Source: Baffinella frigidus
Taxonomy: Eukaryota > Cryptophyceae > Cryptomonadales > Baffinellaceae
Assembly (NCBI GenBank): GCA_026770585.1
Contig: MU646306.1
Coordinates: forward strand, 230,485 to 260,762
Reading direction: 5' to 3'
Length of the DNA: 30,278 nucleotides
The notes beneath the pieces were generated by a model. That model ran no database searches. It was given only the letters and a program-made list of their open reading frames with translations, and was not told where the DNA came from. The translations under genes and the position numbers were made by a program. Numbering within the stretch: the stretch's first letter is position 1; each line of letters starts with the position of its first letter. This document shows positions 3,560-17,926 of this stretch, piece after piece.

Positions 3560-4943
3560 CTAGTACGAGCCCTCTCTGGACGCCTTAAGTGTAAGGTCCG
3601 GCGTCATATGAATTATTGGGGGGGGGGGGGTTATGAACATCGCACTTTTTTCTCGGGAATTCGTCATAGGTTGAACAAAGGTCGCTTCGCTCACCGAGAC
3701 GTCGTAGCAGCCGACGGAGTGCACCGCGTTGTGCCAGTTGTACTTGGGCACCACCACGATGCAGTTCTTGCACGCGAGGAGCGTCACGCGCGGGGGGTTC
3801 ACGCCGAGGACTAGTTCCACCGCCTCGCAGCCTGGGTGAGGGTTTTATTTTTTAGTGTTTTGGAATTATTATGGATTTATTTTTTATGGATTTATTTTTT
3901 AGTTGGTATGGATTTGTAGGGTGTAGGGCTTAGGGTTTAGGGTTTGGGGTGTGGGGTTTGGGGTTTGGGGTTTGGGGTGTGGGGTTTGGGGTTTAGGGTG
4001 TAGGGTAGGGTGTAGGGTGTAGGGTTCAGGGTTCAAGGTTTAGGGTATGGGGTTTGGGGTTTAGGGTGTTGGGTGTTGGATTTAGGGTTTGGGGCTTGGG
4101 GTTTGTGGTGTGTGGTGTAGGGTGCAGGGTGCAGGGTGTAGGGTGTGGGGTTGAGGGTTGAGGGTTGAGGGTTGAGGGTTTGGTATGGGGTTGGGGGTTT
4201 GGGGTCAGGGTGTTGGGTGTTGGGTTTAGGGTTTGGGGTTTGGGGTTTGGGGTTCAGCGTGTAGGGTGTAGTTTTGAGTGTTTGGGGTTGGGGGTTGGGT
4301 GTTAAGGGTTTAGGGTTCAGGGGTTGAGGGTTGAGGGTTTGTGGGACGGGGTTTGGGGTTTGGGGTTTGGGGTTTGGGGTTTGGGGTTTGGAGTGAGGGG
4401 TAAGGGTTCGGGGTTTCGGGTTTGGGGTTTAGGTTGAGGGTTTAGGGTTTATAATGTAGGGTTTAGAGTTTAGGATTCAGGGTTTAGGGTGTAGGGTTTA
4501 CCGGAGAGGACCAGGTCCTCGGTACAGTTGGAAATGACCCTCAGATTCGACGACATCTCGATCATGAGCACGCCTGGGTTCCCCCCGATGCGGAGCACAG
4601 TTTTCTCCTGGCGGCCATGGCAGTCGCGGACTTGCACGGGCTTTGCGACGGGCCCCGCTGGGACTACGACTTCGGTTGCGTCCGCGTCGCACCCATGGAC
4701 GCAGACCTTGCTCTCCATCTCGTACTTGTACGGGAACAGCGGCGTGGTCTCGTTCACCCGCGCGATCGCGGCGCGCAGCTGCTGGTTTTCGGCCCACGCG
4801 ACCCCAATCGCACCCTCCAAGGCCCGCGTCGCCGCATCGCCGCTGCCCATTCCATCCGCCGCGGCAGCTCCCCGCGGCAGCCCGAGCACACTCGGAACTA
4901 AGATCGGGATCGGGACGCCGGACGCAGGCGGCGACAGGGCCAT
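3560..4943 (-). CDS. Unknown minus-strand gene: exon 1 (4943-4502), exon 2 (3831-3695), downstream exons unresolved
   Basis: The start is the ATG at 4943-4941, with A at -3 and G at +4; the longer frame begins with GTG and was not used. Exon 1 ends ...CTC TCC G at 4502 before GTAAACCC. Exon 2 begins after CACCCAG at 3831, and the phase (1 then 2 nt) restores an open frame through junction LVLSG|CEAVELVLG. Exon 2 ends at 3695 before GTGAGC, phase 0. The 193 resolved residues start with a Pro/Ala/Gly-rich stretch and a short helical piece (AENQQLRAAIARVNE). A Cys-containing strand-repeat region follows (CVHGCDADA; ISNCTEDLVLSGC; LLACKNCIVVVPKYN; VHSVGCYDVS). The regular C-x-hydrophobic pattern faintly recalls the beta-helix of cyclase-associated-protein/CARP domains; this is inference only. 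The intron at 3832-4501 is made of telomere-type repeats. The downstream intron contains the microexon-like array. Confidence 0.6.
3832..4501 (-). repeat. Intron made of telomere-type heptamers
   Basis: This 670-bp GT-AG intron of the minus-strand gene reads, in sense orientation, as degenerate CCCTAAA, CCCTACA, CCCCAAA and CCCTCAA units over most of its length (about 3905-4500). The last 70 bases before the acceptor are AT-rich (TAAAAAATAAATCC type). The acceptor is CTCACCCAG. Confidence 0.85.
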
Positions 4944-5254: not shown

Positions 5255-8200
5255 ATGATGTACGGATCGGTGGGTGGCGAGGAGGGTGCGCTTCAGGCTG
5301 GGGACACGGCTCGGAGAAGACAGCGGCTGCTCGCGGGGGCGCTGGGCTCGGTCGGGGCGGCGGCGTGTCTCCTGGCGGTGCTGCTGAGCGGCGTGCGCGG
5401 CTGGGGTAGCGAGCAGGACGGGGGTCCGGGCGGTGGGGCGGCGGCCTGGGGGCATGGGAGCGCGTGGGGTGTCTTGGCTGAGAGCGGCACGGTATCAGCA
5501 CGACCCCAACAACTGGGGGCGGCTCGCAGCTCTCTGTTCGAGCCGGGGTACGAAGCAAACGGCGGTGGTGGGGCGGGCGACCTGACATGGCTGGCGGGGG
5601 GGAAGATCCTGCCGGTTGAGTGGACGGAGCCCGAGGGGGTGGATTACCACGTCCAGGTGGAGGTTGTAATGGAGTCGCAAGACCCCGAGTGCAAGGTCTT
5701 CGCGGACTGGGTGCTGACACAAGTGGTGGGCGCGCCGGGCATCATGGACATTATCCACCTGTCCATGACCCCGTTCGGGTTCGGGAAAGCGAGCAACGGG
5801 GACGGCACCTCGCCCGACGTGGAGCTCGGGCCAGACAAGAAGGGGGAAATGCACTACAACGTCACGTTCAAGGGCGGGAAGCCGCCCGAGTTCATCTGCG
5901 AGCACGGGCCGTCGGAGTGCGAGGGCAACGTCCTCCTCGCGTGCACGCAGGATCTGTACCCAGCGTCGGCGCAGTGGTTCCGCGTCAACATGTGCATCCA
6001 GTCACGCACATGCGCGGACGGGGAGGCGCCCACCGCCGACGCTTTCGCGCACACTGGTGCCTAAACCCTAAACCCTAAACCCTAAACCATCAGCCCTGAA
6101 CCCTGAACCCTGAACCCTGAACCCTGAACCCTGAACTCTGAACCCGAAACCCGAAACTCGAAACTCTAAAACCTAAACCCTAAACCCTAAGACCGAAACC
6201 CCAAACCCCAAACCCCAAACCCCAAACCCCAAACCCCAAACCCCAAACGCAGGGTCCCACCTCCGCGAGGCCTGCCGCGGGACGCCCTCGGAAGTCGCGC
6301 CGCGCTGCATCGCCGAGGTCCCATCCTCCTTCTTCTTCTTGAGTACCCTCAGATAGGACCTCGAGGATACTCGAGAGGCCCCTACGTCTTGCGAAACGCG
6401 ATTAACTATTCCGTATCCCATAAGTGCCCAGTAGGATCATACGCCCTACGGTAGGGCCCTAGGACCTGCCTAGGACCTCCTGCGGGTCAGTTTTGACCGG
6501 CTGGCCACTTAAGGGATACTGCGTGTGCCCTCGGACGTCGCGCCGCACTGCATCGCCGAGGGCTCATTCTAGTGATAGTGAAGCACTCGTGTAGTGATTT
6601 TCGTTGCCCAAAATCATTTGAATCAACGCGCTGCATCGCTGAGGACTCCTCGCTCTGTTCCACTTGATTTCGTCTCGTCATTAAAAACATTTAAAAACAT
6701 TTAGCCGTCATGATTAGTTTTAAAGGAGGGTCTCCAGTACAATTAAATGTCCATGTGCGGCTATTTTTTAAAATGATAGGAAGGAATCAAGTGGGACAGA
6801 GCTAGGTCTCATACGAGTAATAGTAACGCATTCGTGTAGGGATTTTCATCGCCCACAATCATTTAAATCCAACATGTTCCCGGACGACCTCGGAAGTCGC
6901 GCCGCGCTGCATCGCCGAGGTCTCACCCGGGAACGTGTTCAATTTACATTATTTTGGGCGATGGAAATTACTATACACGAAGCGATGCATCGCCGAGGTT
7001 CCAAGTCCCGTTCAAACGTTTTCCCTAGAGCCTTTTGAGTGGTGGAGTCCCTCAGCGGGGTGCGACCTCATCCGGGAACATGTTTCATTCAAAGGATGTT
7101 GGGCAACGAAAATCACTACCCGCGTGCTTTACTATCACTCGTATGATCATCACGTGTAGTAAAATTCATTTTCGAAAACAGGAAAATTAACGGTTAATTT
7201 TGCTTGATTAATTTTTAACCCCGTTCCCGGATTAGGTGGGCATGGGGGTGAACGGGACGCTGATCGGGGACTTTATCCGGGGAAACCTATTTTTCTTTAG
7301 TTTGATGGCAAGGAAAATTACTACACAATTCGTTCTTGTTAGTAATATAAAAGCATTTATGTAGTAATTTTCCTGGCCATCAAACTAAAGAAAAATAGGT
7401 TTCCCCGGATAAGACTGTCAACCCCCCTTCAAGGCTGTGGTTTTCAAAAGTTAACAACCGTGTCCTGCCACGGTTCAAAAAACCTCACCCCCCTTCCATC
7501 ACTCTGGGCGTGGCAGGTGGGCATGGGGATGGTTTTCAAAAGTTAACAACCGTGTCCAAAGTTAACAACCGTGTCCAAAAACTCAACCCCCTCCATCCCT
7601 CTGGGCGTGGCAGGTGGGCATGGGGATGAACGGGACGCTGATCGGAGAGTGCGTCGGGGGGCCCATGGGCACGGACCTGCTCATCAAACACATCCTGCGG
7701 CGCGAGACGATGCAGCCGCCCGTGCGCTACGTGCCGTGGATCCTCGTGGATGGCCGTGTGCTCAACTATCCGAACCGCACGAATGAGTACCTTCTTGGGC
7801 GCGCGATCTGCGAGGTGCACACCCTACACCCCGAACCCCGAACCCCGAACCCGAAACCCTAAACTTTGAACCTTAAACCCTGAGCGCACCTTACACCATA
7901 CAACCCAAATCTCGCACCCTAAGCCCTGAACCCTCAAACCCGAACCATGAACCCTCAACTCTAAACTTTAAACCCTAAGCACACCCTACACCCTCAATGC
8001 TAAACCTCACACCCTGAACCCTGAAACCTGAACCCTAAACCCTAAACCCTAAACCCTGTCTCCTAAACCCTAAACCCTGTCCCCTGACAAGGAAAATCCC
8101 GTGATACCGCTCAGAACAGTACAAGGAATCGTGCTTAAGTTAATTATTGGATTCTTGCCCCAGAAACATGCCAAAAGTCAGCAATTTGGCACGTCCCTCC

Positions 8201-10987
8201 CCGGAAATCCGGGGAGGGGCGTGCCCCGTAGCTATGCCTAGGGCCCCATGGGGTCCTAGGGGGGGCGGTGGTTTCTTATGAGCGAGGTTCCCCTGTACGA
8301 GGAGGAAGGCATCGGCGCGTCCCGGTCGCCTTGCGAAATAGAAAACAGTCCACCTACCCTAACACAGGCTACCGTAACACATACTTACCCTCCACACGGC
8401 CCCCGATTTCCCCCTGCAAGGAAGTATGCCTGAAGGGTGGACACCATAACGCATACCTACCCTCACCACATACTCAATCAGTCCGGCCCCGACGGGTATG
8501 TGTTAGGGTAGGTCCACTGTAATGTGTGTGGTCTGGGACTTACACTGTGCTATCGCGAAAACACCTGGGCGTGCACAAGAAATATTTCGGATGGACGCCG
8601 TGCGAAATGTAGAGCTATTCCGGTAGGACTTGTCGCGTTTTCGATTTCGAGACTTCGAGACTTCGAGACTTCATTTGTACCATGAGATTTGAAACGGTGT
8701 GTTTTAAAACGATTTACGACCTTTAAAACCTTTTTGAAGTCTGAAATCTTGAAATCTCGAATTCGAAAACGCGACAAGTCCTACCGGAATGGCTCTAACC
8801 GTTGGTGGTCTGGGACTCACGCGGAGCTCTCTCCCACCCAGAATTGTGGGGGGGGTATTTCAAACGTCAAGTTTTTCGTGGACATATTTCAAAGGTCATT
8901 TTTATATGAAAATGGCTCCAATTCCAGACAACGGCTCCAATTCCAGACACGAAATACCCCCAGGAAGGACCCTGCGTGGCAGGTGAATCGCGCGGCGATC
9001 CCGATTCCCCTTGGGTGATCCGTGTGTGTGGCCTGGGACTAAAACGCGTGTGTGGTCTGGGACTGAAATGTGTTTGTGATCTGGGACTAAAACGTGTGTG
9101 TGGTCTGGGACTAAAACGTGTGTGTGGTCTGGGACTAACACGTGTGTATGGTCTGGGGCTAAAGTGGAGCTATCTCGGGTCTGGGGCTAAAGTGGAGCTC
9201 TCTCCGTCCAGATGTATCGCGGCACCGGCACGGCGATCCCTTGTGACCTAGAATCGTGTGTGTTGGCTGGGGCTGAAACGGAGCTCTCTCTCTCTCTCCC
9301 CCTCCCTCCCTCTCTCTCTCTCCCTCCCTCTCTCTCTCTCTCTCGCCAGGTGTATCGTGCGAAAGTGGCGAAGTTCTACGCGGAGAACAAAACGCAGATC
9401 CCCATGCCCCTCGGCTGTTTCTTCTTCCCGCAGGTCCCCCCGCCCACATCTGTTTGACGTATATGACGTATACACGTGCAGTTTTGACGATACCAGATGG
9501 CCAACCCCACGTTTGCCGTGACCCAAACCCCCCTCCTAAGGACCACCATAGGACCCTAGACATCGTGCTACTGTAGGGTCTGAGGGGAAAAAAACGCAGA
9601 TCCCGATGCCCCTAGGGTGCTTCTTCTTCCCGCAGGTCCCCCCGCCCCCCCTCCTAGGGACCACCACAGGACCCTAGACATGGTGCTACTGCAGGGTCTG
9701 AGGGGAACAGAACGTACATACCGATGCCTCTGGGGTGCGTGTTCTACCCACAGGTTCGCTCCTCCCCTTGCAGTCGCACACAGCCACACAGCAAATTACT
9801 ATTGATTTTGTACCAGGAGTTTTAGAATTTGTACCAGGGAGCGTGTTGGACACACCCGGTTTAGTACCAGGCTGCGTCCACACAGAGGGCTACCAAGGGA
9901 TTTCCGGGCAGGAAATGCCCGAGTTTCCGTTACCTTGTCTGTAGGGACCGCCCTATGTCCCTACGGGTTGCCTACCGTAGGGTCCCAGGTCTGATCGCGC
10001 AAGGGTTGTTCAAAATCCCTTCGAAGTCCGCTGTGTGGCATGGTAGGGGTGACATGCTATCTTAGAAGGTGCGAGGTTCCTCCTCCCCCAGACCCGGGTC
10101 AATCTTCTTCTTTATTACTCTCAAGAAACCGCCCCCCCCCTCTAGGACCCTACAGTAGGACCGTGCCTAGGGTCTAGGGGGGCGGCGGCGGGGGGGCCTG
10201 CGGGAAGAAGAAGCACCCTAGGGGCATCGGGATCTGCGTTTTGTTCATTACGTTGAAGCCCGTTGAGATGCGTGACCCAAACGCCTAGGAGCCTTACAAA
10301 CTCCTCGAGACCCGGATCCCAGTCATGGTAGGGGGGTGCGATATGCCATCTCAGCCGCGGCGTAGCGTACCATGGCACACACCCTCCATCCCTAGTGTAG
10401 CTCCACCTGGTTACAGCTTTTCCCTGTACCTGTTTTGATGAGCGAGGTGCCACTGTACCATCGCACAGCGGGCGAGGACTAGCGTGGGATGGGCCCGCCT
10501 CGGGAGCTCTTGGAGCTCTTGGATGCGCCTCGGTGTCCCTTAAGTGGCCAGTAGGCTCATACGCCCTACCGTAGGGCCCTAGGACCTGCCTAGGACCTGT
10601 TGGAGGTCACATTTGACCTCCTCGCCACTTAAGGGATACGCATCCCTGTCCCGAGCTCCGCAGACTGGACCCCCCCCCGTCCACACGAGGCTATCCATGC
10701 GAACAGATTCATAAGTTAATTATTGGATTATTGCCCAGGAAACACGCCAAAAGTCAGCATTTGATCACGTTTCCGTAGGGACATCCGTACGGAAACGTGA
10801 TCATTTCCCCACAAATTTTAAAGTGTCCTTTTATTCTGTTCGCATGGATAGCCTCGTGTGGGTGGCACCCCCGAACAAAAAAAATGTGCGATACCCTGCT
10901 TAAATCATGAGTTCGTGTGCCGCGTTTTGAGCGAGCAGTGTAGCAGAAGGGAAGCGCGGGTGCAATGCCCCCCTGTTTCTCTGTCTC

Positions 10988-11038
<51 letters not shown>

Positions 11039-11067
11039 CTCTCTTTCTCTTTCTCTCTCTCTTTCTC

Positions 11068-11098
<31 letters not shown>

Positions 11099-11353
11099 CG
11101 CTCTCTCTCTCTCTCTGAGCACACCTGCCTCCCATCTGCCTCCCGACAGCTCGATGCAGCGCCCGACCCTGCTCCTCACCCCCCCCCCCCCGCATCACAG
11201 GAGGCGCCCATCGTGCGATTGGACAAATCGTACGAGACAGCGATCGTATGGCTGTGGGCGATCGGGGGGGTGTCGTTCTTCATGGGGGTCTCAATCCTCG
11301 TCCTGTGGAAATTGAAGAGTTCCCAGTACCAAGGCATCGTGGGGGACGACTGA
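5255..11353 (+). CDS. GILT-family thiol reductase-like membrane protein, five exons (434 aa)
   Basis: Exons are 5255-6056, 6253-6317, 7614-7814, 9350-9433 and 11201-11353. All junctions are GT-AG with matching phases (1, 0, 0, 0). The start is the first ATG of the frame (MMYGSV). The GILT signature CEHGPSECEGNVLLAC is at residues 215-230. The family's C-terminal block follows (CIAEVGM...IGEC around 286-302; QPPVRYVPWILVDG at 323-336; ICEVY at the exon 3/4 junction). The family reduces lysosomal disulfides with a CxxC site. The aligned position here reads ESQDPEC (140-146), so the first cysteine is replaced by Asp and only Cys146 remains. Residues 25-47 form a hydrophobic signal or anchor segment. 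Residues about 398-420 form a C-terminal membrane helix followed by a 14-residue tail with YQGI (427-430), a YxxPhi-type sorting motif. An endolysosomal membrane location is inferred. Introns 2-4 contain repeated exon edges and MITEs. Confidence 0.88.
6057..6252 (+). repeat. GILT-like gene intron 1, telomere-type repeats
   Basis: The donor is GTGCCTAAACCC and the acceptor is CCAAACGCAG. Almost all 196 bp are degenerate CCCTAAA, CCCTGAA and CCCCAAA heptamers in sense orientation. The last 50 bases are seven near-perfect CCCCAAA units. Confidence 0.9.
6414..6518. mobile_element. MITE family E, copy 3 (in GILT-like intron 2)
   Basis: 105 bp with TATCCCATAAGTGCCCAG and CTGGCCACTTAAGGGATA ends. 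It lies between the real exon 2 end (6317) and the first reiterated copy of that exon end (6528-6560). Confidence 0.9.
6528..7000 (+). repeat. Four reiterated copies of the GILT-like exon 2 3' end inside intron 2
   Basis: The real exon 2 ends GCGCTGCATCGCCGAG|GT at 6317. Related segments recur at 6528-6560 (33 bp, but GG instead of the GT donor), 6627-6645 (short, GAGGA), 6888-6923 (36 bp, GAG|GT kept) and 6982-7000 (short, GAG|GT kept). The copy at 6888-6923 lies in the loop between the inverted arms 6815-6880 and 6929-6985. The copies at 6627 and 6982 lie inside an outer inverted pair (6568-6622 with 7088-7141). Confidence 0.85.
6568..7141. repeat. Nested inverted repeats carrying exon-edge copies
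   Basis: The outer arms are 6568-6622 and about 7088-7141; GATTTTCGTTGCCCAAAATC pairs with GATGTTGGGCAACGAAAATC. The inner arms are 6815-6880 and 6929-6985, containing CCCACAATCATTTAAATCC and its diverged complement, and both ending in CCGGGAAC-type sequence. Arms of this type (GTAGTAATTTTC) also occur at 7277-7410 and 29355-29727, suggesting one dispersed family. Confidence 0.75.
7231..7531 (+). repeat. Two upstream copies of the GILT-like exon 3 start with its acceptor
   Basis: The real exon 3 begins CGTGGCAG|GTGGGCATGGGG at 7614. A copy at 7231-7270 (ATTAG|GTGGGCATGGGGGTGAA and on, about 37 exon bases) is cut off next to a hairpin. A second copy at 7500-7531 (CTGGGCGTGGCAG|GTGGGCA) is cut after 17 exon bases. 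The second copy and the real start are parts of an approximately 95-bp tandem duplication that also carries AAAAGTTAACAACCGTGTCC. Confidence 0.85.
7277..7410. mobile_element. Inverted-repeat element (K-related) in GILT-like intron 2
   Basis: Long near-perfect arms run CCGGGGAAACCTATTTTTCT ... GGCAAGGAAAATTACTACAC and back. It sits directly after the truncated exon 3 start copy at 7231-7270. The arm motif is shared with the elements at 29355-29510 and 29550-29727. Confidence 0.8.
7815..8092 (+). repeat. Telomere-type repeats at the 5' part of GILT-like intron 3
   Basis: The donor GTGCACACC is followed at once by degenerate CCCTACA, CCCCGAA and CCCTAAA heptamers in sense orientation for about 275 bp. 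The remainder of this 1535-bp intron holds MITE fragments, a complete MITE H and a 24-bp tandem repeat. Confidence 0.9.
8132..8297. mobile_element. Chimaeric MITE remnant (A-like left part, B right half)
   Basis: Bases 8132-8190 match the interior of MITE A (TTAATTATTGGATT...CCAAAAGTCAGCA). A different palindrome follows (GGCACGTCCCTCCCCGGAAATCCGGGGA...). Bases 8240-8297 match the right half of MITE B and end GAGGTTCCCCTGTA. Confidence 0.65.
8610..8797. mobile_element. MITE family H, copy 2 (188 bp)
   Basis: Same length and ends as copy 1 at 389-576, with only a few substitutions and TA at both ends. It lies in intron 3 of the GILT-like gene. Confidence 0.9.
8848..8962. mobile_element. Inverted-repeat element, family I, copy 1
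   Basis: The element begins GGGGGTATTTCAAACGTCAA and ends GACACGAAATACCCCC. It contains a short tandem doublet of ACGGCTCCAATTCCAGAC. A related element with ACGGCTCCAAGAACGAGC doublets is at 12940-13049. Confidence 0.7.
8980..9235 (+). repeat. Exon 4 start copies and a 24-bp tandem repeat in GILT-like intron 3
   Basis: At 8982 the sequence GTGGCAG|GTGAATCGCGCGGC reads VNRAAIPIPLG, a compressed echo of exon 4 (VYRAK...IPMPLGC). At 9209 CGTCCAG|ATGTATCGCGGCAC echoes the exon 4 start CGCCAG|GTGTATCGTGCG. Between them (9018-9195) are about seven diverged copies of a 24-bp unit, ACGTGTGTGTGGTCTGGGAC plus TAAA. Single copies of the same unit occur near 8519 and 8800. Confidence 0.7.
9282..9345 (+). 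repeat. (CT)n tract forming the polypyrimidine tract of the exon 4 acceptor
   Basis: A run of CTCTCT and CCCTCC lies directly before CTCTCGCCAG|GTGTAT, so the simple repeat is itself the 3' splice-site pyrimidine tract. Confidence 0.85.
9526..9760 (+). repeat. Two downstream copies of the GILT-like exon 4 3' end, alternating with MITE B core sequence
   Basis: The real exon 4 ends CGGCTGTTTCTTCTTCCCGCAG|GT at 9433. Copies lie at about 9588-9635 (ends CTTCTTCTTCCCGCAG|GTCC, reads TQIPMPLGCFFFPQ) and about 9706-9752 (ends TTCTACCCACAG|GTTC, reads YIPMPLGCVFYPQ). Each is preceded by GGACCACCAYAGGACCCTAG...CTGAGGGG, which resembles the core of MITE B without its TIRs. Exon piece plus core form a unit of about 118 bp. 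Confidence 0.85.
10125..10260 (-). repeat. Inverted copy of exon 4 3' end joined to MITE B core
   Basis: The reverse complement at about 10200-10256 reads ACAAAACGCAGATCCCGATG ... CTTCTTCTTCCCGCAGG, matching exon 4 and its tandem copies. It is joined to MITE B-like core (10140-10190: TAGGACCCTACAGTAGGACC). It lies in intron 4 in antisense orientation, so it cannot act as a splice site of the gene. Confidence 0.8.
10534..10638. mobile_element. MITE family E, copy 4 (in GILT-like intron 4)
   Basis: 105 bp. The left end has changed to TGTCCCTTAAGTGGCCAG; the right end is GCCACTTAAGGGATA. Core palindromes are intact. Confidence 0.88.
10681..10861. mobile_element. MITE family A, copy 2 (in GILT-like intron 4)
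   Basis: 181 bp with the same 24-bp TIRs as copy 1, flanked by GT on both sides. The internal palindrome carries one change (TCCGTAGGGACATCCGTACG). Confidence 0.9.
10988..11117 (+). repeat. (TC)n microsatellite in GILT-like intron 4
   Basis: About 130 bp of nearly uninterrupted CT dinucleotides with a few CTTT and CG interruptions. It lies about 85 bp upstream of the exon 5 acceptor GCATCACAG|GAG, and a C-run lies between. It may extend the pyrimidine tract. Arg/Glu and Ser/Leu reading frames across it are artefacts. Confidence 0.95.
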
Positions 11354-14102: not shown

Positions 14103-16455
14103 TCAGATCCGCTCCCAATCAACGCCGCCGCCCCCGCCGTACCCACCGCCGCCACCCGGCTCGCGGCGCCCACCCTCACGCCGCTGCCCGCCAGCGGCGC
14201 CGCCGCCGCGGTAGCTGCTGCGCTCCCCGCCCCCACCGCCCCGGTAGCCGCCGCCCCCGCCGGAGCTGGACCCGCCCCAGCTGTCACGCGAGGCCCCGCC
14301 GCCGTCACGGCTGCGCGGCGCGCCGAAATCCCGCCCGCCACCGCCCCCGCGGTATCCTCCCCCACCGCCGCCGCCGCCCCCACGATACCCCCCGCCGCCG
14401 CCACCGCCGCGGCGGTCGCGCCCGTAGCCGCCGTCGCCGCCCCCACGGTAGCCGCCCCCGCCCCCGCGGTAGCCGCCCCCGCCGCCCCCGCGACCGCCGC
14501 CCATGCGCCCGCGCGCCTTGTCCTCCTCGATGTCCGGGAGCGCGTCCGGGAAGGAGAACATGCCGCCCGAGTAGAAGTTGGTGGTCTCGTACTTCATGAC
14601 CTTGTCCACGAGGCCGGCGGCCGCGGTCGGGGAGAGGTCAATGACGGCCGAGCCGTCGAGGCAGCGCGCGATCTTCCCGATGCGCGACTGCGAGGGCGGG
14701 AGGTTGCCCATCTCGTCGGCCGTGAGGCACTGCGACACGATGCGCATCACGTCGCGCACCTCGAACATCTCGCCGGGAGCCCCGTCCGACGGCGTCAGCT
14801 GCACGGTGCGCAGCTCGTCCTCGCCCGTGAGGAGCGAGCGCTTCGACGGCGGCGACTTGTAGCCCGACATCCACGCGAGCGCGGTCGACACCGCTGCCAC
14901 GCCGCCCATCTCCTCCACGAGCTTCTCGGCCACGTCGTTGAAGAAGGGGATCAGCTCCTCGTTGACGCCCTTGAGGTTGTCCCCCGCGCGCATGGCCGAG
15001 GCCTCCATGATCTCCACAGGCTGGTTTGGGGTTGAGGGTTGAGGGTTGAGGGTTTTAGGTTTTAGGTTTTGGGGTTTGGAGTTCAGAGTTTAGAGTTCAG
15101 GTGTAGGGTTCAGGTTTGAAGGTGCAGGTTTCAGGTTTCAGGTTTCAGGGCTGAGGGTTCAGGGTTGTTCAGGATGCAGGGATGAGGGCCGAGGGTGCGC
15201 GGTTGAGCGGAACCTGCGGGGTCCCTAGGGTTTTTTTTGGGTTAAGAGGTTTAGGATTTGGGGTTTGGGATTTAGGGTTTGAGATTTAGGGTTGATGGTG
15301 TGGTGTAGGCACCTGCGGGGTCCCGCGGCGCTCGAACTTCACGCCCGCGTCCCGCTCGATGCGCGAGAGCTGGAAGCCCTCGGCCTTGTCGTAGAGCACG
15401 AGCGAGGTGCCCGTGCGCCCCGCGCGCCCCGTGCGCCCCGCGCGGTGGATGAACGCCTCGAGCTCCTTCGGGACGCCGTAGTGCACGACGAGATCGATGT
15501 GGTCGATGTCGAGCCCGCGCGCCGCCACGTCCGTGGCGATCAGCACGGGGATGCGCCCGGAGCGGAACCCCGAGAGGATCTTCTCACGCGCCTGCGAGGA
15601 GGAAATGCGTGTCAGAGCCTTCTTGTGTGGAGCAGACAGACGCCTTCTTGTGGGGAGGGGGGGGCGAGCAGACGTGTGGGGAGCTGGGGAGGACTCAGTG
15701 GACACAGAGTTCAGTCTCAACGGCCGGGTAGAGATCTGAGACTGACTCTATTCAGTCTCTGCGGTTTAGCGCGCGCCGAGCTCCGGTGGAGTCACAAGGT
15801 GTGGGAAGCTCCCTTTGAGGCTCAGCAGAGCGTCCACGGTTAAGACTGAAGAGAGCTCTTCCTGGAACCAACTCTCTGCGGTGTTGTAGATCACCTCGAG
15901 TTACAACCCCTGTCTGGTCAGGTCAGAAGATGTGGCACGCTCAGAATGTGTGGATGGTCCTGCCCCCGCCCCAAGCAACATTGGTGGGGGGCAAAAAGCA
16001 AAAGAAGGTGACCAGTGGCGCGGTCACCGTCTTCCGAGAGTGCCCCAGAAGCACTCATCGCCCCCAAGCTTTCCAAGCAGCAGAGCGCTCCCACGAGGAT
16101 AGCTCTCCCAGGGCTCTCAGCAGGAGAGCGTTCCCAGCGCTCTCCAGACTGGTCAAACCGTCTTCTCAAACGAGCGCCGCTCTCACAACACGCCCCGGTG
16201 CCCCCACTTCGACGCACACTCGAGGCTGGGGGTGGAGGGGTGGTTTGCATTTCTGAAGGGGGCGGGCGGGTCACCGTCTGAGGAATGCTACTCAAGGCTC
16301 ATGCTCGAGGGGTGGTGGACGTTTCTGGGAGGGGGNNNNNNNNNNNNNNNNNNNNNNNNNNNNNNNNNNNNNNNNNNNNNNNNNNNNNNNNNNNNNNNNN
16401 NNNNNNNNNNNNNNNNNNNNNNNNNNNNNNNNNNNNNNNNNNNNNNNNNNNNNNN

Positions 16456-16511
<56 letters not shown>

Positions 16512-17926
16512 CGCACCGTCTGGGGGATATCGCCGTGAAGGGCCTCGGTGCCCTTGATGATCATCCCAAGCGTCTGCACGAGCTCGTCGGCGTCGCGCTT
16601 GGTGTTGACGAACACGATGGCGTGCTGCGTGCGGTACAGCGTGATGAGGTCCGCGAGCATCGTCGAGCGCTGGCGCGCGGTCGCGGTCACCGCCACGTGC
16701 GTCACGCCCTCCGCCACCTTCTGCCGCGAGTTGCCCACGAGGTCCACGTCGTGCGGGTTGATCAGGTTCGTGCGCGCGAGGTCGCGCACCCAGGGGGGGA
16801 CCGTCGCGGAGAAGAGGAGCGTCTGGGGGCGCGCCTCGCCCTGCGGCATGCCGCCCATGAGCGTCTCGACGTCCTGTGGGGTGTATGGTTCGGGGTTTAG
16901 GGTTTAGGGTTTAGGGTTCAGTGTTCAGGGTTGAGGTTTAGGTTTTAAGGTTGAAGGGTTCTGCGTTCAGGTTGTAAGGTGTAAGGCGTAGAGTGTAGGG
17001 TTAAGGGTGTAGGGTGTAGGGTTTCGTGGTGAGGGTTTCGGATTCACCTCGGCGAAGCCGCGGTTGAGCATCTCGTCAGCCTCGTCGAGCACCAGGAACT
17101 TGATCTCCGAGAGGTTGAGGGCGCCCTGCTTCATCAGGTCGATCATGCGCCCGGGGGTCCCGACCACAACGTCGACGCCGTCCTTGAGCGCGCGCTCCTG
17201 CCGCTGGTAGGGGACCCCGCCGTACACCGCGAGGGTCTGGATCTTGATGGCGCCGCCCGTGGTGAGCGCCTCGATCTCACGCTCCACCTGCTGCGCGAGC
17301 TCGCGGGTGGGGGAGAGGATGATGGCCTTGGCGAGCGAGCCACGCTGGCGCCGCGTCTCACCGTTGGCCGTCTTGTCGTTCATGAGCCGCTCGATGATGG
17401 GGAGCGCGAACCCCATGGTCTTGCCCGTGCCCGTGCGGGCACGCGCCAGCACGTCGCGCCCGTCAAAGATCTCGTTGTACGTCGCGCTCTGCACCGGGAA
17501 CAGCTTTGTGATGCCGCGCTGCGCCAGGTTGTCCATCGACTGCGCGCTGATCCGGAAGTTGCTCACGTCGTTCTCGTCCTTCACCTCGTCAGTTGAGACG
17601 TCCGTCTCCTGAACCGGGATGGAGTCCACGATCTCCGCACCACCGACCGTGGAGTCATCACTGGCCGCGGTGAAGAAATCCGCAGTCTCGATGTCCTCCT
17701 CGACAATCGGCTGAGTGTCGACCATCTTCAGGCCGAACGCCGGGAGGCTGGGAAAGCGACCTACCCTGGGGGCAAGGCGAAGAGCGCGCGGGGAGGTCGC
17801 CACCGAGACAAAGCCCGAACGCGAAGCGACAGGCATCCGCGCTGGCGCCATGAAGGCGGAGGCGCTGCCCATCAGAGCAAGTGCCACGAGCAGCACCCCC
17901 ATGCCCGAGGCTGTGCGACCCTGCAT
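14103..17926 (-). CDS. Plastid-targeted DEAD-box RNA helicase with GUCT domain, four exons (810 aa), RH3-like
   Basis: Exons in order are 17926-17048, 16873-16517, 15591-15313 and 15020-14103. All introns are GT-AG, phase 0. Residues 1-24 are a signal peptide with a hydrophobic core, cleaved at SASA|F, followed by a basic, acid-free stretch. This is the bipartite presequence of red-lineage complex plastids. All helicase motifs are present: Q-motif region around 138-147, ARTGTGKT 163-170, PTREL 206-210, TPGR 257-260, DEAD 281-284, SAT 315-317, IVFVNTKRD 379-387, ATDVAARGLD 431-440 and HRAGRTGRAG 461-470. A GUCT-like domain occupies about 565-645. A long Gly/Arg-rich tail (GGYRGG units, about 676-806) ends VDWERI. 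Family knowledge: plastid RH3 proteins act in group II intron splicing and ribosome assembly; the same role here is inferred. The length is slightly above plant RH3 because of the tail. Exons 2 and 3 abut as HGDIPQT|AREKIL. Confidence 0.95.
15021..15312 (-). repeat. Helicase intron 3, telomere-type repeats
   Basis: 292 bp. In sense orientation the donor is GTGCCTACACC and the acceptor is CCAAACCAG. The interior is degenerate CCCTAAA, CCCTCAA and CCTGAAA units. Confidence 0.88.
15592..16516 (-). other. Helicase intron 2 containing the assembly gap and a G homopolymer
   Basis: In sense orientation the donor is GTGCGCCCCC and the acceptor is CCTCCTCGCAG. Bases 16335-16455 are N and 16456-16511 are pure G, so the true length is unknown. 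Short echoes of the exon 2 end plus donor (AGACG|GTGACC) occur at about 16270-16283 and 16022-16037. Outside these there is a degenerate tandem pair near 16220-16335, and no other gene is seen. Confidence 0.8.
16335..16455. other. Assembly gap (121 N)
   Basis: A run of N directly followed by 56 G residues and preceded by GGGAGGGGG. This is probably a sequencing failure in a C/G-rich homopolymer of the intron. Confidence 0.99.
16874..17047 (-). repeat. Helicase intron 1, telomere-type repeats
   Basis: 174 bp. In sense orientation it starts GTGAATCCGAAACCC and ends CCATACACCCCACAG. The interior is degenerate CCCTACA, CCCTAAA and CCTTAAC units. Confidence 0.9.

Follow-up and report, generated by a model that had tools for sequence, protein, structure and literature searches.

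How does an intron come to hold partial copies of the exons on both of its sides, sorted by the side from which they derive? The question is raised by a gene of the cryptophyte Baffinella frigidus. The window (the whole stretch of DNA analysed here, 30,278 nucleotides, positions 230485-260762 of one contig) carries on its + strand a five-exon gene resembling GILT (5255-11353), in whose second intron the 3' end of exon 2 recurs four times and then, ahead of exon 3 itself, the 5' start of exon 3 recurs twice. The original prediction, made from the letters of the window, held that ordinary tandem duplication of whole exons would not give such a sorted order, and suggested that the intron had grown by repeated insertion at or near its splice junctions with duplication of the flanks. 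We analysed the copies and the elements between them in the window and in the genome (382 Mb, 1364 contigs).

The GILT-like gene and its surroundings

The gene was recognized by the GILT profile PF03227, which matches in exon 1 (E 5.2e-13; 49.7 bits against a curated cut-off of 22.4). Thirteen proteins fell under the E-value cut-off, including the window's own exon 1 and one from Hemiselmis andersenii, a cryptophyte, and all four exon joins are free of gaps in an alignment of 9 sequences. Because the homologues are continuous across the join of exons 2 and 3, the copies in intron 2 are not constitutively spliced exons of a domain repeat. The coordinates of exons, copies and elements are collected in Table 1.

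Table 1 Features of the GILT-like gene and of its introns 2 and 4 (positions in the window; a slash marks a splice junction)
Feature	Position	Strand	Basis
GILT-like exon 1	5255..6056	+	gene model, PF03227, alignment
Exon 2 (E0, source of the 3'-end copies)	6253..6317	+	gene model, alignment
Intron 2, GT..AG	6318..7613	+	gene model
Intron 2 start GTCCCATCC; its final six bases match 5/6 of the X left end TCATCC, possibly a remnant	6318..6326	+	by eye
Another palindromic repeat (TATCCC..GGGATA), between E0 and E1; CCTAGGACCTG core recurs in the window	6414..6518	+	
Exon 2 3'-end copy E1, donor lost (GAG/GG)	6527..6570	+	repeat and local-alignment search
Right half of X-family element, fused to E1	6564..6626	+	sequence comparison
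Exon 2 3'-end copy E2, donor lost (GAG/GA)	6627..6644	+	repeat and local-alignment search
Element Z, imperfect inverted repeat, inside E2 unit	6648..6806	+	inverted-repeat search
Right half of X-family element, completes E2 unit	6809..6892	+	sequence comparison
Exon 2 3'-end copy E3, donor kept (GAG/GT)	6882..6928	+	repeat and local-alignment search
GGTC, then left half of X-family element (TCACCCGGGAAC..)	6919..6978	+	sequence comparison
Exon 2 3'-end copy E4, donor kept (GAG/GT)	6982..7003	+	repeat and local-alignment search
X2, near-complete X-family element; right end GGATTA adjoins GGTGGGC	7068..7234	+	local alignment
Exon 3 5'-start copy, TTAG/GTGGGC	7234..7270	+	repeat and local-alignment search
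Element Y, 140-nt palindrome, 4-bp target duplication GACT (7269-7272, 7413-7416)	7273..7412	+	
97-nt tandem duplication, intron 2 3' end and exon 3 start	7438..7628	+	repeat search
Exon 3 5'-start copy, GGCAG/GTGGGC	7497..7531	+	repeat and local-alignment search
Exon 3	7614..7814	+	gene model, alignment
Exon 4	9350..9433	+	gene model, alignment
Exon 4 3'-end copy in intron 4, CAG/GT kept	9584..9647	+	local-alignment search
Further exon 4 3'-end copy in intron 4, with greater divergence, score 38	9702..9755	+	local-alignment search
Inverted exon 4 3'-end copy in intron 4	10187..10246	-	local-alignment search
Exon 5	11201..11353	+	gene model, alignment

The GILT-like protein retains CEHGPSECEGN (5660-5720), which together with a CXXC active site we take to be a motif of GILT. 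At the presumed CXXC site, placed in an alignment that holds no canonical GILT to fix its position, stands ESQDPECKVF with a single cysteine, and with this sequence in place of the expected CXXC the reductase activity of the protein is doubtful.

Two further observations concern the surroundings of the gene. CCCTAAA-like repeats make up introns or parts of introns at 6057-6252, 7815-8090, 15021-15312, 16874-17047 and 3839-4500. In all five of these in-gene arrays the sense strand, as judged by eye, is the C-rich one, so that the repeat would offer pyrimidines and CTAAAC, a sequence resembling a branch site; such arrays could be ready-made introns. The minus strand carries a gene that we named by eye as a DEAD-box-like helicase (14106-17902, four exons, with a glycine-arginine-rich tail), and its second intron holds the window's run of N.

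Exon-end copies in introns 2 and 4

All six copies in intron 2 lie in direct orientation. Their best local scores are 79, 60 and 65, whereas dinucleotide-shuffled sequence (200 shuffles each) never exceeded 23. GAG/GT is kept in two of the four exon 2-end copies. The copies and their order, as first described, were thus confirmed: they are neither chance matches, given shuffle maxima so far below 60-79, nor, as the homologues make clear, constitutive repeated exons. One more match to the exon 2 end, a weak one (score 28), lies far off at 14964-15008. A genome search with 6253-6330 returned three places, namely exon 2 and two of its four copies, and none outside the gene, at a sensitivity too low for the two shorter copies (E2 and E4). 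On the acceptor side, the exon 3-start copy at 7497-7531 sits within the 97-nt tandem duplication.

Intron 4 contains copies of the exon 4 3' end. Those at 9584-9647 and 10187-10246 reach scores of 98 and 95, with no shuffle above 30, and the former consists of the last 52 nt of exon 4 and 12 nt of intron; taken together, the exon 2 and exon 4 end copies reach 1-12 nt into the intron. When 9584-9647 is set by eye against 9382-9445, the stretch ATCCCC..CCGCAG differs at four places, all of them third codon positions, and encodes the same peptide. Local alignment within the window gave no copies of the exon 1 end or of the exon 5 start at a score of at least 28, and the exon 3 end matched telomere-like repeats only.

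As expected of tandem duplication, both the 97-nt unit and the exon 2 and exon 4 end copies span a splice junction and are found close to the sequence from which they derive. Tandem duplication would also leave every copy in direct orientation, but the exon 4 copy at 10187-10246 is inverted and is not the product of simple tandem duplication.

Simulated partial duplications sort the exon halves

In a simulation, random partial duplications crossing the junctions were kept only if the exons stayed intact. Among 25,588 simulated duplications that touched an exon, 21,658 were tolerated; 9,403 of these left copies in introns 1 or 3 only, and the other 12,255 put exon sequence into intron 2, without exception in the form of exon 2 3' ends, of exon 3 5' starts or of both kinds. 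In serial form (400 runs, with the first intact exon 2 and the last intact exon 3 taken), both kinds of copy appeared in 184 runs, of which 159 were fully sorted and 25 were not. Since a tolerated junction-crossing duplication leaves one exon intact, 3'-end copies come to lie downstream of it and 5'-start copies upstream. Partial duplications therefore sort the halves where the exons have to stay intact, and the strongest argument of the original prediction, that ordinary duplication could not do so, fails. The sorting of halves needs no special insertion process. Nor is such sorting universal, as an internal exon piece recurs downstream of its exon at locus L110, one of the genomic loci described below.

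Elements between the copies

Several short elements lie among the copies (Table 1), among them remnants of a family that we call X. The near-complete X2 is identical to the X copy at locus L097 in 103 of 144 aligned bases, covering positions 1-152 of the 154 of the reference. Y interrupts the first exon 3-start copy, and Z interrupts the E2 unit. By eye, E3 runs on as GTC followed by the left end of X (TCACCC), and E0 runs on as GTC followed by CCATCC; CCATCC itself does not align to X, and local alignment of 6315-6400 to the X references found no match at the X end. In E1 and E2 the sequence that follows is TCAT from the centre of X, which is what deletion at a TCAT microhomology would produce. 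The arrangement suggests that the copied unit was the exon 2 end joined to X. The 70 nt directly downstream of E4 are accounted for by no part of the history proposed below.

Families X and Y across the genome

A genome search with an X arm gave 13 matches, two of them in intron 2. The termini of X read TCATCCGGGAAC..CCCGGATTA and are flanked by a 4-bp duplication, and GGTY followed by the X end matches 81 times in the genome, against 0 matches for the reversed pattern. X is a dispersed family with a short target duplication and inverted termini, and in both respects it agrees with introners.

The GGTC form accounts for 41 of the 81 matches, and the first 28 of these were analysed. A right end was located at 23 of the 28 loci, with GGTC exact in 17 of the 23 and with at most one mismatch in 19; when the right end was picked by its terminus alone, ignoring the duplication, 17/23 were likewise exact. 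The base before GGTC is A at 15 of the 28 loci, compared with a background of 31% (Fisher p 0.021). A coding score above 5 was reached by the left flank at 4/28 and by the right flank at 2/23 GGTC-X loci, compared with 0.5% of presumed noncoding windows.

At L097 the sequence is coding on both sides of X. The joined empty site is open over 144 nt and scores 25, whereas none of the 2000 presumed noncoding windows used as controls scored above 3 (0/2000). With an open coding frame and AG/GT at both edges, this X copy resembles a clean intron, and L097 is the one locus in 28 with a clean coding-frame intron. Removal of X would restore the coding frame at L097. One-sided coding was found at L105, L109 and L110 (left) and at L107 (right). 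In L110, X stands at the 3' edge of the coding sequence; here the internal exon piece (GCGGGGTACAACGAGC) recurs beyond X within telomere-like sequence, and a palindromic element follows.

For family Y, 40 copies were scored from 1503 first-look candidates, the duplication set consisting of 39 copies and the window's own. The 4-bp duplication is exact in 35 of 40 and has at most one mismatch in 38 of 40. The exact duplications are of the form RNNY in 34 of 35 cases, and mispaired flanks match in 23 of 1560. Twenty of the 48 AGGT-Y loci were analysed (L076-L095), and AGGT is exact on the right at 17 of them. Y was rejected as an introner, none of these 20 loci having clear coding sequence on both sides; at L083 and L084, coding-like sequence extends 23 and 17 nt beyond the junction.

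The base before AGGT is C at 15 of the 20 AGGT-Y loci (L076-L095), and the insertion site thus often reads CAGGT, like a splice donor; this may reflect a target preference. A 186-nt segment with AGGT at its start and end lies on both sides of Y at L064 (C315:66407-66987). At C75:951995-952377, AGGT-Y starts are 321 and 44 nt apart, and 321 is close to the length of the L064 unit and Y combined. Possibly these two loci share a repeating segment-plus-Y unit.

A proposed history of intron 2

The reading that we prefer, with a probability of about 0.58, is that intron 2 was born by insertion of X and then grew by short local duplications across its donor and acceptor. X, a short palindromic transposon, would have inserted into a continuous exon at an ancestral junction GCCGA[GGTC]GGC, and the 4-bp GGTC duplication would have supplied the splice sites, with the donor AG/GT coming from the duplication and the acceptor from the element's terminal A and the duplication's G. 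Element end and duplication together would give GAG/GT at the donor and TTAG/GT at the acceptor. The unit of exon 2 end and X would have been copied repeatedly, halves of X would have been lost, twice at TCAT microhomology, and Z, Y and other repeats would have inserted later. Local duplications crossing the junctions would accumulate, and selection for intact exons would sort the copies.

The junctions bear on this history in both directions. X remnants directly abut both an exon 2-end copy (GGTC-X) and an exon 3-start copy (X-GGTG): E3 reads GCCGA-GGTC-X and X2 reads X-GGTG-GGC, with GTC and GTG both encoding valine. The two tetramers, GGTC and GGTG, match in three of four positions only and lie on different X remnants, and the left flank of X2 itself is GACC and not GGTG. 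These points count against a birth from X, as do the lack of an alignment to X at the true intron start and the single clean case among 28 GGTC-X loci. On balance, an insertion probably founded intron 2. The idea of insertion at or near the junction, part of the original prediction, is retained as probable for the founding event, and it is not supported as the repeated process by which the intron grew.

Alternatively, intron 2 could be old and ordinary, X having merely landed inside it while duplications crossing its ends did the rest. This is a possible reading, if on the unlikely side. Local direct repeats are indeed frequent: once low-complexity stretches had been removed, 39 of 205 points had one, compared with a single shuffle in 205 (the points were drawn from 70 element loci, two islands and the window and do not represent the genome at large). 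Long repeats are common away from introns as well, and L064, L075 and L110 have repeats near elements outside the GILT-like gene. Against local duplication alone, X remnants adjoin an exon 2-end copy and an exon 3-start copy without a gap, and the tetramers flanking them agree in 3/4, much like the GGTC duplication of X copies.

Long repeats and insertion points

If the elements themselves had made the intron grow, each transposon insertion at a splice junction would have copied 20-80 nt of flanking sequence, and every copy would be a long target-site duplication. Long direct repeats adjoin some elements, as they do at L064, with about 50 nt at island 1, about 80 nt at island 2 (by eye) and 28 nt at L025; a coding scan of these two readable islands outside the window found little. 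Such repeats accompany 15 of 110 palindromes and 163 of 2200 random intervals, about a twofold difference (p 0.026), and at a score of at least 30 they are seen in 6 of 40 Y copies, whereas mispairing the flanks gives 1.3%. Insertion points tell otherwise. After 20 more loci had been added, the Y insertion points (59 usable) were spanned by a long repeat in 19 cases and the control points at the same loci in 153 of 475, and a repeat breakpoint was no more than 5 nt away in 6/59 and 41/475, respectively. Controls share their loci with the Y points and can see the same repeats, so the breakpoint count is the better test. The link between palindromes and long repeats is weak, and it is absent in the within-locus control. 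Long target-site duplication was dropped because X and Y leave 4 bp and breakpoints are not concentrated at Y ends; we regard it as unlikely here, and the claim that repeated insertion duplicated the flanks is not supported.

It is also quite unlikely, as far as can be judged from the sequence, that the copies serve as alternative donors and acceptors or as AG/GT points for recursive splicing. Two donor copies and both acceptor copies do keep AG/GT, and the copy at 9584-9647 keeps CAG/GT and, in the part read by eye, the frame of exon 4; but two of the four donor copies are broken, amino-acid changes and truncations are seen by eye in the copies, and the homologues have no extra residues. Capture of the exon ends by an element that carried them in is the least likely of all: the copies sit between element halves, but searching the genome for the exon 2 end, at a sensitivity too low for pieces of the size of E2 and E4, gave nothing outside the gene, although X and Y are dispersed.

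Discussion

The sorted copies in intron 2 are a real feature and mostly explained, as known processes in a new combination: a probable introner birth and then ordinary local duplication, sorted by selection. Introners, in the part of Gozashti et al. 2022 (PMC9860276) used here, are intron-making DNA transposons with target duplications of 3-9 bp. Like the introners described there, X is dispersed and short, its termini are inverted repeats, and its target duplication is likewise short, at 4 bp. Those introners also draw their splice sites wholly or partly from the duplication and leave the coding length unchanged, as would apply here to L097 and intron 2. Unlike them, X yields one clean case in 28 loci, and intron 2 is overgrown by exon-end copies.

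Growth has its own parallels. In the potato RdRp gene, according to PMC4974935, an intron was gained when a segment spanning an intron-exon boundary was duplicated in tandem. There, as here, the duplicated unit crosses a splice junction and exon sequence is left inside the intron, whereas a new intron arises there and an existing one would have been enlarged here, several times and on both sides. The introner elements of Amoebophrya, from a portion of PMC7789003, share the hairpin-capable inverted repeats and the short direct repeats at exon/intron boundaries, but their repeats are 3-5 nt long and their introns non-canonical, as opposed to GT-AG and much longer exon copies here. Rogers and Bendich 2025, in the passages of PMC11782384 considered here, report direct repeats of 4-30 bp at the borders of all 213 introns and take them as marks of insertion. 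Direct repeats likewise surround the intron borders in our case, but here long repeats are frequent off introns and breakpoints are not concentrated at Y ends.

Among titles and the starts of abstracts, our literature search found no intron with sorted exon-end copies, and a search pairing introner with cryptomonad found nothing. In maize, transposition-mediated DNA re-replication reportedly leaves a transposon at the duplication junction, as at L064; unlike in that process, the control test gave no excess of breakpoints at element ends here.

The birth by X and the later duplications might be joined into a two-step life cycle, which we offer tentatively and think rather unlikely. A hairpin-forming introner would found an intron and then destabilize the intron's own edges; donor and acceptor segments would be recopied, and the resulting ladders of AG/GT would lengthen the intron and prime it for new donors, new acceptors or stepwise splicing.

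Sorted half-exon copies are to be expected from plain duplication and selection, and taken alone they do not point to an insertion process of any special kind. As a candidate intron-making element, family X is open to testing. The birth of introns is partly known and their growth past 1 kb less so, and intron 2 may show both steps: a single intron may record its founding element, the 4-bp duplication of that element and the later copies of its exon edges.
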